From Spirochaetales bacterium (GTDB taxonomy: Bacteria; Spirochaetota; Spirochaetia; DSM-2461): a DNA stretch of 33,522 bases. The position numbers and the translations under genes are program-made. Numbering within the stretch: position 1 is the first letter of the stretch; every line of letters begins with the position of its first letter. Shown here piece by piece: positions 8,539 to 12,920 of the stretch. The stretch covers positions 1 through 33,522 of the forward strand of contig JAFGXR010000015.1 of NCBI GenBank assembly GCA_016936555.1. Reading direction: 5' to 3'. The notes below the pieces were generated by a model. The model made no database searches. It was given only the letters and a program-made list of their open reading frames with translations, and was not told the origin of the DNA.

Positions 8539-9237
8539 TCAATCCCACAATGTAATATCGCTTTTATGCTTCACCTGGACTTCTATCTTCCCTTCCCGGA
8601 CAAGAGATTCATAGAACAGGACTATATTGCGGCCATGCTCCTTGGCGTAATACAGAGCTTTATCGGAATTGGAAGAAGTTTCGTACAGATTTGCCGTCCC
8701 GCTTATGGTGCTGAATCCTATGCTTACGGTCAGGTTTCCGATTCCCGGGAAATTGTAAGCCTCGACTTTTTTTCTGAAACGATTAAGCAGTTCTTCGACA
8801 GCCCGGGATTCAGTCTCTTTGATAATGACCAGAAATTCTTCTCCTCCGTACCGGATTTTAAAATCCTCTCTTCTGAAGCTGTTTTTCAGTATCCCGGAAA
8901 AATGGATGAGGACCTCATCGCCTATCAAATGTCCGTAGGTGTCATTAACACTTTTGAAATGATCAATATCCAACATGGCCAGATGGGAATACGCCCGACT
9001 GTCCATGGTGGTCATGATTTTAATAAAATACATTCTGTTATGGAGCCCTGTCAGAAAACCCCTGTCCTTCTCCTGGATCAGAAGCAGCACATTACTGAAA
9101 ATTCCTATGATCCTGTCCACATCGGAGTCCATTAGCCTTTGATTATCGCAAAGAATAACTTTAAGGACATATAAAACCTCTCCGTCCTTTGCCACAGGGA
9201 AGTAACAGGCAGTCTGACCAGGATCTTCACTTTCCAT
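8539..9237 (-). CDS. Diguanylate cyclase with short N-terminal region
   Basis: GGDEF-domain protein of 232 residues expected to make c-di-GMP from two GTP. The first 65 or so residues (FPVAKDGEVLYVLKVILCD, then a helix) look like the C-terminal part of a GAF-type sensor domain, not a complete one. The GGDEF domain follows: LTGLHNRMYF, DIDHFKSVNDTYGH and the active-site loop YGGEEF. The inhibitory I-site RxxD is present as RRED five residues before GGEEF, so product feedback is expected. It begins two bases after the stop of the ureohydrolase gene. The N-terminus may be a truncated sensor, or the protein may simply use a minimal domain; no signal peptide or membrane segment is seen. Confidence 0.88.
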   Translation of the reverse strand: MESEDPGQTACYFPVAKDGEVLYVLKVILCDNQRLMDSDVDRIIGIFSNVLLLIQEKDRGFLTGLHNRMYFIKIMTTMDSRAYSHLAMLDIDHFKSVNDTYGHLIGDEVLIHFSGILKNSFRREDFKIRYGGEEFLVIIKETESRAVEELLNRFRKKVEAYNFPGIGNLTVSIGFSTISGTANLYETSSNSDKALYYAKEHGRNIVLFYESLVREGKIEVQVKHKSDITLWD

Positions 9238-9239
9238 AA

Positions 9240-10136
9240 CTACAATCTATTATAAAGCACTCCACCCATGATATCTATGGCAAGCCGCGCGGCAGTTTTG
9301 GCAGTTATGCCTGCTGGATCGGTTTCCCCGGAAAGCTCGACAATATCGCAGGAAGACAGATGGGGCGCCAGACGGTTTACGAGATAGAGCAGTTCGCGGC
9401 TGCTCAAACCGCCCGGTTCGGGGTTTTCCACTCCCGGAACTTCGCAGCCGTTCAGGACATCGAGATCGAGGGACATGTAGAGAGGATCCCCGTTTATCAG
9501 TTTTTCAATTTCCTTCCAGACGTAGGCAATACCCCGCTCGAGAACATCCTCCGGAGTTATGACTTTGAGCTTTTTCTCCCGGATATAGTCGCGCTCTTCC
9601 GCTTCGGGGACACGGATTCCGATCAGCAGCGTTCTCTCCCTGTCGACAAGGTTCTCATCAATCAGCCTCCGGAGAACTGCCGCATGGGAATAGGGGTTTC
9701 CGTTGACCTGATCCACCGTATCGGGATGGGCATCGAAATAGACAAGTCCAGGGGGAGCGTTGTTTTTTGAAACGATGGATTTAATTACGGGATAGGTGAC
9801 CGAATGATCGCCGCCCAGAGTCAGAAGAAAACGATCCCACGAATCTGAGGGGCAGTTGCGCCGGATTTCATCCATCAGAGAGGAACCGCTGAAGTCCTGA
9901 AGAGGCAGATTTCCCAGATCGCAGATCTTACCGGAATTCTCGAACTGATATCCCGATGATGTTCTGAGCGTATTCCAGATACGGGATGCGATGCGGATCT
10001 GATCGGGGCCTTTTTCCGCGCCGAGCCGCCCCGTACCGCCTCCCGCCGATGTGGGCAGACCCCAGACGGCGATCCGGCTCTCATCGAAGCTTAAATCCTC
10101 AGCTCCTGCGATTTTAAGTTCTGAATCTTCCATCAT
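9240..10136 (-). CDS. Arginase/agmatinase/formimidoylglutamase-family ureohydrolase
   Basis: Binuclear manganese ureohydrolase of 298 residues that would hydrolyse a guanidino or formimino substrate (agmatine, arginine or formiminoglutamate). Metal-binding motifs are visible in order: LGGDHSVTYP, YFDAHPDTVD, YSHAAVLR and SLDLDVLNG, followed by VELSGETDP. The third block usually reads SHG, and the fourth usually has DP after the DxD pair; here it reads NG, so the member is somewhat diverged and the substrate cannot be assigned. The ATG at 10136 has AGGAG six bases upstream. It lies between signalling genes in one operon, 43 bases after the HDOD gene and two bases before the GGDEF gene. Confidence 0.87.
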   Translation of the reverse strand: MMEDSELKIAGAEDLSFDESRIAVWGLPTSAGGGTGRLGAEKGPDQIRIASRIWNTLRTSSGYQFENSGKICDLGNLPLQDFSGSSLMDEIRRNCPSDSWDRFLLTLGGDHSVTYPVIKSIVSKNNAPPGLVYFDAHPDTVDQVNGNPYSHAAVLRRLIDENLVDRERTLLIGIRVPEAEERDYIREKKLKVITPEDVLERGIAYVWKEIEKLINGDPLYMSLDLDVLNGCEVPGVENPEPGGLSSRELLYLVNRLAPHLSSCDIVELSGETDPAGITAKTAARLAIDIMGGVLYNRL

Positions 10137-10179: not shown

Positions 10180-11670
10180 CTACATAAACAGACCTTCGTT
10201 CTTCAGCTCTCCGATCAGCTCTTTGAATTTCTTCTCATCATCGAGCCTGAAAAACGAGAGGACGATATGATTGATATCGTTAAAATCCCGCTCGCCAGCT
10301 TCAAAGTGAAAGATCTCATTGGCCAGATAAACCGTATAACTCAGCGCTTTGAATTCCTCATCAGCTTCGAGAGGCATATGATGATACCTGATGGGGACGA
10401 TTAGCCTCCGGGGGAAATCCCATTTCTCGGCAACCTGGGCACCTATAAGAGCGTGATTGTACCCCTCTGTCAGATCATCGAGAAGGGACATGGGAATGTG
10501 TTTCTCCCGGCAGAGATCGGAGATCTTCTTCTCCAGCTCCCTGTTCAGTCCCGCCACGATAATCCGTCCCATATCGTGGAGGAGAGATGCGATATAGACA
10601 TCTTCCGCAATCTTTCCTATTTTCATATGTCTGGCGATAAAACTGCCTATAAGCGCGACCATAAAGGAATGATGGCTGATTTCGTTGACAATGCTCTCCT
10701 TGAAGCGCTGCCGCATGACTTTCAGCATCCCGTAGTTGTAAAGAATGGATTTTACACCGAGCATGCCCATGACCCGGACAGCCGAAGCGACATCGGTCAC
10801 TTCATGTCTCGTCCTGTAGACAGGCGAGTTGGCTATGCGCAGTATTTCCGCCGAGAGGATCGGGTCGGAGTTGATCGATTCGGCAATGGAAAGGAAATTG
10901 CAATCGGGATTGCTCAGCTCTCTCTGGAGGGTCTGGATGCTGGCGGGGAACTGGGGCATCTGTTGCAGTTCCGCCGCTATGGTGTCGGCGATTATCAGAC
11001 TCTGGTCAACCGACAGCAGGTTGAGGGGGATTTCCAGCCTCGTGAGACTTCCCGATCCACTGTTCTCAAAAGAGATGGCTTTCTCATCGAGATTGACTTT
11101 CCGCAGCATGAGAAGAACGATGATGAGCCCGAAGCCGGCCCCTTCCGTCGAGTCGAATCCATAGGTGAAAACTTCGCCCAGATTATCGAATTTTTTCGCC
11201 ATTTCCATCCGCTCACGGATCCTGTGAAGTTCCTTTTCGATGAAGGGGGTCGGGCTGGAAACGTCCAGCCTGAAGAACTGGTCGTCCAGGGAGAAGCGGA
11301 TACCGACAAAAGTGTTCCGTTTGCGGTGTTCCTCCTCCATGGCGGAAAAATCGAGAAAAACTTCTTCCTTGAAACTCTTCATGGCCTCTTCGTATTGTTC
11401 GGGATCGAGAATATCCATCCCTTTCATCTCGAAATAGATCCTTTTCGAATTGGCCTTGCTCGCATTGGTGGACAGCTCGTTCACCACATATTCCAGATGG
11501 GAATGGAGGTGTTCCTGATTGATAATTTCCAGTATGTTTTTCAGGACTCTGGAACAGTAGAGATCTGTTTCCCGGCTCGTATAGGGAAAAGTGCAGGACA
11601 ATTCCCTTTTTTCTTCGAGTTCCCTTCTCAGCGTTTCGATGTCGACATCATGTATCTCGGTGTAATTCAC
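10180..11670 (-). CDS. HATPase-like plus HDOD domain signalling protein
   Basis: Cytoplasmic protein of about 496 residues with two recognisable modules. Residues about 60-215 resemble a GHKL ATPase: N-box VVNELSTNASKAN and a glycine-rich lid STEGAGFGLIIVLLMLRK, but no phospho-acceptor His domain. Residues about 220-440 are an HDOD domain (MPQFPASIQTLQREL, SILSAEILRIANSP-type helix, then IASLLHDMGRIIVAGL and AEKWDFPRRLIVPIRYHH). HDOD proteins generally act as signalling scaffolds without enzyme activity. The GTG at 11670 makes a GTGA overlap with the stop of the upstream GGDEF gene and has AGGG seven bases before it; a TTG at 11676 is the alternative. Its partner is probably the two-receiver GGDEF protein encoded upstream. 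Confidence 0.85.
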   Translation of the reverse strand: MNYTEIHDVDIETLRRELEEKRELSCTFPYTSRETDLYCSRVLKNILEIINQEHLHSHLEYVVNELSTNASKANSKRIYFEMKGMDILDPEQYEEAMKSFKEEVFLDFSAMEEEHRKRNTFVGIRFSLDDQFFRLDVSSPTPFIEKELHRIRERMEMAKKFDNLGEVFTYGFDSTEGAGFGLIIVLLMLRKVNLDEKAISFENSGSGSLTRLEIPLNLLSVDQSLIIADTIAAELQQMPQFPASIQTLQRELSNPDCNFLSIAESINSDPILSAEILRIANSPVYRTRHEVTDVASAVRVMGMLGVKSILYNYGMLKVMRQRFKESIVNEISHHSFMVALIGSFIARHMKIGKIAEDVYIASLLHDMGRIIVAGLNRELEKKISDLCREKHIPMSLLDDLTEGYNHALIGAQVAEKWDFPRRLIVPIRYHHMPLEADEEFKALSYTVYLANEIFHFEAGERDFNDINHIVLSFFRLDDEKKFKELIGELKNEGLFM

Positions 11671-12920
11671 AGACAAACCCTGTTCTTCCCCTTCTCTTTC
11701 GCTTCATACAGTTTGGCATCGGCGGCATTAATCATATCGGTCAAGCTGTTTTTCTTCTCGATGCACAAACCGAAACTGGCTGTAACTGTTATTTTTTTCC
11801 CCTCGTGGCTGAAATCGTAATCCTCAATCTTTTTGCGGATTGATTCAAAAAGCAGGATGGCATCTTTCGGATCCATATTATTCCCGATAATGCAGAACTC
11901 CTCGCCTCCGTAACGGGTCAGAATATCCGTTGATCTCAAACTCCCCTGGAATATTCTGGCCAGAGTTTTGATAACATAATCCCCGGCATCGTGGCCGAAG
12001 CTGTCGTTGACATTTTTGAAATTATCTATATCGATCATGGCGACGGCCATATAGCTGCCCGTCCGTTTGGCCGTGTTGAACACGAGGTCCCCCGTATCGA
12101 AGAGATAGCGCCTGTTGTGTATTCCCGTCAGATGATCGATCAGTGCCACTTCCCGGAGCGATTCGAAGTTCTCGATCAGCCTGATATTCTGATTGATCCG
12201 GGTATAGAGCAGCTCGCTGACAAAGGGCTTGGTGATAAAGTCGTTCGCCCCGTATTTGATGAATTTTATGAGCATGGCGTGGCTGCCTTTGGCTGAAATT
12301 CCGATTATGGCCAGCTTTTCCATGGGAAAATTCTTTCTGGCTTTGGTCGTGAACTCGAAACCGTCGCAGACCGGCATCTGATAATCGACCAGGGCCAGTT
12401 TTATATCGGAATTGTGTTCGAGAATCTCCAATGCGACCAGGCCGTTCTCCGCTTCATAAACTTTAAAATGGTGGACATTGAGCAGCCCTTTAAGATGCTT
12501 TCGGCTCACGGTGGAATCATCAATGACCAGAACCCCTATATCCCTGTTTTTATTAAACCGGTTGATCATGCCGAGGATATAACCGACGGAATGAGACCCT
12601 TCCTTTATGACATAGTCGATGACTTTTTTTGACCAGATAACTTCCTGAATATCCGGAGAAAAGGTCGATGTCATAACCAGGGAGGGAATATTCAGAGAAA
12701 GACAGAGATCCACGATGGCTCCGTCCATGGCATCGGGAAGGTGATAATCGAGAATGGCCATCAGAATATCGCCGCTTTCGGCAAGAGGGGTCAAACCTTC
12801 TTCCGCTTCTTTGTAACTCTTGAACCAGGTTACATGAAACCCCAGGGAATGGCTTATGCTGTGCTTGAGAAGTTTACCGTAGAACTCACTCCCTTCGACG
12901 ATGATGATTTTGTGATTCAT
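11667..12920 (-). CDS. Two-receiver response regulator with GGDEF output
   Basis: Diguanylate cyclase of 417 residues with REC-REC-GGDEF architecture, like PleD in outline. The first receiver (about 1-120) keeps a possible phospho-Asp (AILDYHLPDAMDG) but its acidic pair is replaced (IIVEGSEF), so it is probably not phosphorylated. The second receiver (about 128-245) is complete: VLVIDDSTVSRKH, ALVDYQMPVCDG and ITKPF. The GGDEF domain has LTGIHNRRYLFD, DIDNFKNVNDSFGHDAGDYV and RYGGEEF, with the I-site RSTD five residues earlier. It overlaps the HDOD gene, which points to a joint pathway. No Shine-Dalgarno precedes the ATG at 12920; TATAGT lies only three bases upstream. Confidence 0.92.
   Translation of the reverse strand: MNHKIIIVEGSEFYGKLLKHSISHSLGFHVTWFKSYKEAEEGLTPLAESGDILMAILDYHLPDAMDGAIVDLCLSLNIPSLVMTSTFSPDIQEVIWSKKVIDYVIKEGSHSVGYILGMINRFNKNRDIGVLVIDDSTVSRKHLKGLLNVHHFKVYEAENGLVALEILEHNSDIKLALVDYQMPVCDGFEFTTKARKNFPMEKLAIIGISAKGSHAMLIKFIKYGANDFITKPFVSELLYTRINQNIRLIENFESLREVALIDHLTGIHNRRYLFDTGDLVFNTAKRTGSYMAVAMIDIDNFKNVNDSFGHDAGDYVIKTLARIFQGSLRSTDILTRYGGEEFCIIGNNMDPKDAILLFESIRKKIEDYDFSHEGKKITVTASFGLCIEKKNSLTDMINAADAKLYEAKEKGKNRVCL

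Follow-up and report, generated by a model that had tools for sequence, protein, structure and literature searches.

The window, by which we mean the whole 33,522-nucleotide stretch of DNA analysed here, encodes a GHKL-HDOD protein whose gene overlaps that of a two-receiver diguanylate cyclase. Sequence comparison indicates that the GHKL-HDOD fusion is a Spirochaetota-wide family and not a rare one, and in other genomes its GHKL module is associated with STAS and SpoIIE genes. Tentatively, and with somewhat less than even confidence, we explain the protein as a partner-switch-type regulator in which the HDOD domain and the cyclase would form the working core and the GHKL module and the receivers would serve as inputs. 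An earlier note on this DNA had proposed an ATP-gated switch on c-di-GMP synthesis. We keep this gate as one of several options, not the best supported one, and regard the spread of the GHKL family across the phylum, together with its links to partner switching, as the more useful finding.

All window features given below lie on the minus strand unless stated otherwise. The REC-REC-GGDEF diguanylate cyclase (11667 to 12920, 417 aa) was identified as an ORF and by Pfam, and the GHKL-HDOD protein (10180 to 11676, 496-498 aa depending on the start codon) as an ORF, by Pfam and in an AlphaFold2 model. The overlap of the two genes (11667 to 11676) was as the earlier note had read it. The cyclase gene ends with TGA (11669-11667), and the HDOD gene starts either at GTG 11670, with a 4-nt overlap, or at TTG 11676, with a 10-nt overlap. 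TTG 11676 is the better guess, because the closest relative (L006, 83% identical) retains the TTG but has GTA where the window has GTG. The gene for an agmatinase-like ureohydrolase (9240 to 10136) lies 43 nt downstream of the HDOD gene and is probably in the same operon, and a second, short GGDEF protein of 232 aa (8539 to 9237) is encoded 2 nt past it. Thus, these gaps make a four-gene operon likely (cyclase, HDOD, agmatinase-like and short GGDEF genes). In a relative, G002, an extra 298-aa gene, GNAT-like by eye (L037:6679-7575), separates the HDOD gene from the agmatinase-like gene. Members of the window clade adjoin differing nitrogen-metabolism genes (window 8539-10136; L038:8346-9563; L136:3592-5712). 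An antisense ORF of 455 aa (10453-11820, plus strand) lies opposite the HDOD gene; it is probably a coding-strand shadow, the conserved domains being in the minus-strand frame.

Pfam detected GGDEF in the cyclase (E = 1.2e-41) and matched Response_reg in two stretches. The first receiver (residues 1-118; 12567 to 12920) contains the acceptor Asp and the Lys. The earlier note had described it as lacking the acidic pair; one residue is indeed lost, to Gly, but the Glu is still there, and the pair, which is Glu-Asp in L007 and L008, is half-lost as Glu-Gly in the window. In the second receiver (residues 128-243; 12192 to 12539), the DD pair, the acceptor Asp and the Lys are intact. The GGDEF domain (residues 257-416; 11673 to 12152) has both its GGEEF active site and its RxxD I-site (RSTD) intact, and both motifs are retained in all seven cyclases of cyclase-HDOD operons. 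With its REC-REC-GGDEF order and a GG(D/E)EF motif, the protein is a diguanylate cyclase of the PleD/CbrR type. The NCBIfam CbrR model spans residues 1-415 at 256 bits, under its cut-off of 600, which places the protein outside the CbrR equivalogs.

The GHKL module covers residues 20-218 in GTG numbering (11017 to 11613). Pfam HATPase_c matched the HDOD protein with E = 0.0063 and 17.4 bits, under the curated cut-off of 26.4, and PF13581 did not detect the module in a search of the window's genome. A sequence search of the PDB with the GHKL profile returned chance-level matches only, among them a weak alignment to VanS with N-T-G, i.e. Asn, in the G1 box. The AlphaFold2 model, built from a 57-sequence alignment (mean pLDDT 87.9, pTM 0.60), contains a Bergerat alpha/beta sandwich at residues ~20-220, so that the refuting condition set by the earlier note, no Bergerat fold in residues 60-215, does not hold. 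This part of the model resembles kinases of the RsbW/SpoIIAB type at Z ~12: RsbW (6m37) aligned with Z 12.3 and rmsd 2.1 A over 114 residues, SpoIIAB (1th8) with Z 12.3 and SiaB (6kko) with Z 11.8. Since these Z values tie, which of the three is nearest cannot be told from the model. As the earlier note had stated, no HisKA or other DHp phospho-acceptor domain was found in the protein by Pfam, and a reading as a histidine kinase was ruled out for lack of a DHp domain. Membership in the SiaB family (DUF6272, PF19788) was also ruled out, with no Pfam match and an hhalign probability of 29%, despite the structural match.

Alignment of homologues located the N-box ELSTNASK (E65 and N69; 11455 to 11478) and the ATP-lid motif DSTEGAGFG (residues 173-181; 11128 to 11154), both of which had been recognized before. 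Across 56 homologues, neither the N-box residues Glu and Asn nor the EGAGLG lid varied; the N-box residues and glycine lid occur together in the window and the core family and not in the genus designated g3. The G1-box position, on which the earlier note is silent, is DVSSPTPF (residues 136-143; 11242 to 11265), without the Asp. A canonical DxGxG was found neither in the window nor across the family: Asn-Asn stands at the site of this Asp in 56 of 56 homologues besides the window. Asn-Asn is gone from the window and from the two cyclase-linked relatives closest to it, where this site reads V-S-S-P, V-T-S-P and V-L-C-P. The window site reads V-S-S-P-T-P in full, which is non-canonical, with S-P at the Asn-Asn position, and L008 still has Asn-Asn. 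The G1-box Asp is missing from SiaB homologues as it is from the GHKL family, and an Asn is invariant in them, yet SiaB is an active kinase that consumes ATP (PMC7647112); by this analogy, the GHKL family may bind nucleotide. The loss of Asn-Asn makes nucleotide binding by the window copy doubtful. Therefore, we call the window module GHKL by fold and do not assume an ATPase function.

The HDOD domain (PF08668; 10372 to 10959) was detected by Pfam with E = 1.6e-45, as had been expected, and model residues 220-496 aligned with HDOD structures, SadB among them, at Z 19-21 (SadB 9qzk, Z 20.6). We know of no established role of HDOD domains as general c-di-GMP receptors. The T. pallidum protein TP0073 also carries an HDOD annotation (PMC7112178).

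When named genomes were scanned with the GHKL module, 455 relatives emerged. The 72 ORFs obtained from the best 80 of these 455 loci were nearly all full-length GHKL-HDOD fusions, and the best 80 belong to Spirochaetota wherever the title gives a phylum or lower rank, two being titled just 'bacterium'. The GHKL profile matched 96 of 149 sampled Spirochaetota genomes, with up to 13 copies per genome, and the module was present in 61 of 83 spirochaete genera sampled, including Treponema denticola (L114). These numbers overturn the earlier description of the GHKL and HDOD pairing as uncommon. The GHKL proteins have two sizes, ~500 aa (that of the HDOD fusion) and ~230-260 aa (stand-alone), as checked by domain in 40 loci. 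The core fusion lies downstream of a LonC-like gene in at least 35 of 71 loci, and flgM, the flagellar anti-sigma gene, is within ~6 kb in at least 23 of 71, T. denticola included; contig ends shorten many loci, and both counts are lower bounds. Most GHKL-HDOD fusions adjoin no cyclase gene, and the pairing with a cyclase had been over-read in this respect. A further connection to c-di-GMP comes from L064, L078 and L082, where a 7TMR-DISM-GGDEF-EAL gene follows the core copy of the fusion. No description of the GHKL-HDOD architecture, or of its position beside a diguanylate cyclase, was found in the open-access literature, in agreement with the earlier note.

Other copies of the GHKL module lie in settings known from partner switching. 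One is a CBS-SpoIIE(PP2C)-GHKL fusion of 624 aa whose gene overlaps a STAS gene (G048, L144:5510-7751). In another, 5 nt separate a stand-alone GHKL gene from the STAS gene behind it, which carries a DSSG motif (G155, L182:3562-4607), and in a third (L164) both SpoIIE and STAS genes lie no more than ~4 kb from a stand-alone copy. A switch of the RsbU-RsbV-RsbW kind is built from these components. A partner-switching role would fit better than a generic 'ATP gate', because the module occurs both as the CBS-SpoIIE-GHKL fusion overlapping a STAS gene and in a STAS operon. A STAS neighbour is missing from most stand-alone GHKL copies, and the surroundings of the window pair showed neither a STAS nor a SpoIIE gene. 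Genes for STAS proteins, for SpoIIE phosphatases and for ordinary RsbW-like kinases do exist at other places in the window's genome, and a putative STAS partner of the window protein could possibly act in trans. Several stand-alone GHKL genes have a ~255-aa neighbour, which was considered as a shared partner and rejected, since by eye these proteins looked unrelated (one dehydrogenase-like, one glycosyltransferase-like). In G029, a gene for a SpoIIE-type phosphatase is directly followed by an HDOD-only gene (L165:2955-5089).

In the tree, the window HDOD protein falls into a paralogous clade with support of 100/100. Three members of this clade come from a different genus of the same family, and they too lie directly behind a REC-REC-GGDEF gene. 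The cyclase neighbour would most simply be ancestral in the clade and have been lost twice later. Cyclase orthologues of more than 375 bits were found in eight genomes, and in seven of the eight they directly precede a member of the window HDOD clade. The cyclase of G009 (48% identity) stands alone in a ~90% complete genome with no HDOD match, and several of the sister HDOD genes are not accompanied by a cyclase. Since the cyclase partner occurs in another genus and both lone cyclase and lone HDOD copies exist, the pairing predates the genus and can be dispensed with on both sides. Among the operons of genus g3, inter-operon identity is 28-29% for GHKL, 64-72% for HDOD and 62-65% for GGDEF. 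The EGAG lid motif is gone in all three operons and the N-box Asn in two of them, and the receivers are degraded, with E-S or E-K in the first and D-N in the second. Thus, HDOD and GGDEF are the retained core. We read these changes as a cyclase-HDOD core with decaying inputs; GHKL and receivers decay together in a single lineage, which is no more than suggestive.

If ATP binding to the GHKL module gated c-di-GMP synthesis by the co-translated cyclase via HDOD, the Bergerat fold, the retained N-box and lid of the window copy and the overlapping genes would all be accounted for. Nor would Asn in place of the G1 Asp be fatal by itself, to judge from SiaB and from the VanS structure entry with N-T-G at this site. 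We nevertheless consider the gate improbable: both the Asp and the family Asn-Asn are missing from the window G1 site, a cyclase partner is absent beside most fusions, and the nearest structures are partner-switching kinases, suggesting a different mechanism. In addition, the g3 operons retain the pair after decay of the GHKL motifs; therefore, ATP gating is not essential to the pairing. It also seems doubtful to us, at a similarly low level, that the cyclase and HDOD genes are merely co-transcribed neighbours, together with the agmatinase-like gene, and have no functional interaction. The lone cyclase of G009 would suit this reading, as would the downstream genes, which are agmatinase-like in the window and G002 and nitrilase-like and diaminopropionate ammonia-lyase genes in G001, with an arginine deiminase gene adjoining the sister HDOD copy in G043. 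However, the cyclase-HDOD order is constant in seven genomes from at least three genera, with a tight spacing (overlap to ~25 nt), while the flanks change. Where they are adjacent, the GHKL-HDOD protein and the cyclase probably work together.

A further alternative would make the HDOD domain an HD-type phosphohydrolase that depends on metal and counterbalances the cyclase, with c-di-GMP, pGpG or another nucleotide as a conceivable substrate. H334, H365-D366, H406, H430 and H431 are retained in at least 54 of 56 homologues, Pfam HD and TIGR00277 HDIG score above their cut-offs on the HDOD protein, and HD-GYP and PgpH structures align to the model. Of the H...HD...D ligands of HD phosphohydrolases, the H and the HD are thus present along with three further His, but the final Asp is replaced by Asn (N451, Asn in 55 of 56), just past the HDOD domain in the C-terminal part, and the GYP motif is absent from the protein. 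DVU0330, an HDOD protein with HD residues, shows weak activity on bis-pNPP and none on c-di-GMP, and the HDOD protein GsmR has no phosphodiesterase activity (PMC4114195). We regard a hydrolase as unlikely; given these residues, the domain may still bind metal or have weak hydrolase activity.

We therefore return to the partner-switch-type regulator. The window copy would be a paralogue, and in its lineage a REC-REC-GGDEF cyclase would have been gained as operon partner. The two receivers, chiefly the intact second, would set the activity of the cyclase, and HDOD would be its constant working partner, either reading the c-di-GMP produced, as SadB does, or binding the cyclase and tuning its output. 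The GHKL module would act upstream as an input and, in most members, would bind nucleotide and a STAS-type partner as a putative kinase. This input may have been weakened or lost in the window paralogue without loss of the cyclase-HDOD pair. A broader proposal, which we advance as a long shot, is that the modules form a phylum-wide, unnamed class of Asn-Asn partner-switching kinases. Through the HDOD fusion, the phosphorylation state of a STAS protein would then feed into the control of c-di-GMP and flagella, and the window pair would be a version wired directly to a cyclase. The GHKL module scores under the Pfam cut-off, yet most of the sampled spirochaete genera have it; should it prove to be a partner-switch kinase, it would represent an unrecognised signalling layer in a phylum with poorly mapped regulation. 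The cyclase operon offers a simple pair for testing this role.

We compared the pair with known systems. The window cyclase shares the domain order REC-REC-GGDEF with CbrR and PleD. CbrR has SAEKI and KGRD at its active site and I-site (PMC8779298), whereas the window cyclase has a canonical active site and I-site, a half-degenerate first receiver and an HDOD partner. SadB of P. aeruginosa and P. fluorescens is a c-di-GMP-binding HDOD protein tied to a diguanylate cyclase pathway (PMC6543031) and thus resembles the window pair in its HDOD fold and cyclase link. Its N-terminus is a YbaK-like domain and not GHKL, and its c-di-GMP site could lie in this non-HDOD domain. In the SiaABCD system of P. 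aeruginosa, SiaB/SiaC phosphorylation switches the cyclase SiaD (PMC7278518, PMC8457831); common to SiaB and the window protein are a GHKL kinase fold without DHp and a genetic link to a diguanylate cyclase. SiaB differs in being a stand-alone protein that acts on SiaC and has no HDOD domain, and there is no significant profile match between the two. The window's genome also encodes, at another place, a genuine SiaB (DUF6272) together with SiaC, the two genes being convergent (L153, G000:C63). RsbW and SpoIIAB are the top structural matches, and relatives of the window GHKL module occur with STAS and SpoIIE genes. Unlike these kinases, the window module is fused to HDOD and has two added helices (residues 90-118), and its family carries Asn-Asn in place of DxGxG.
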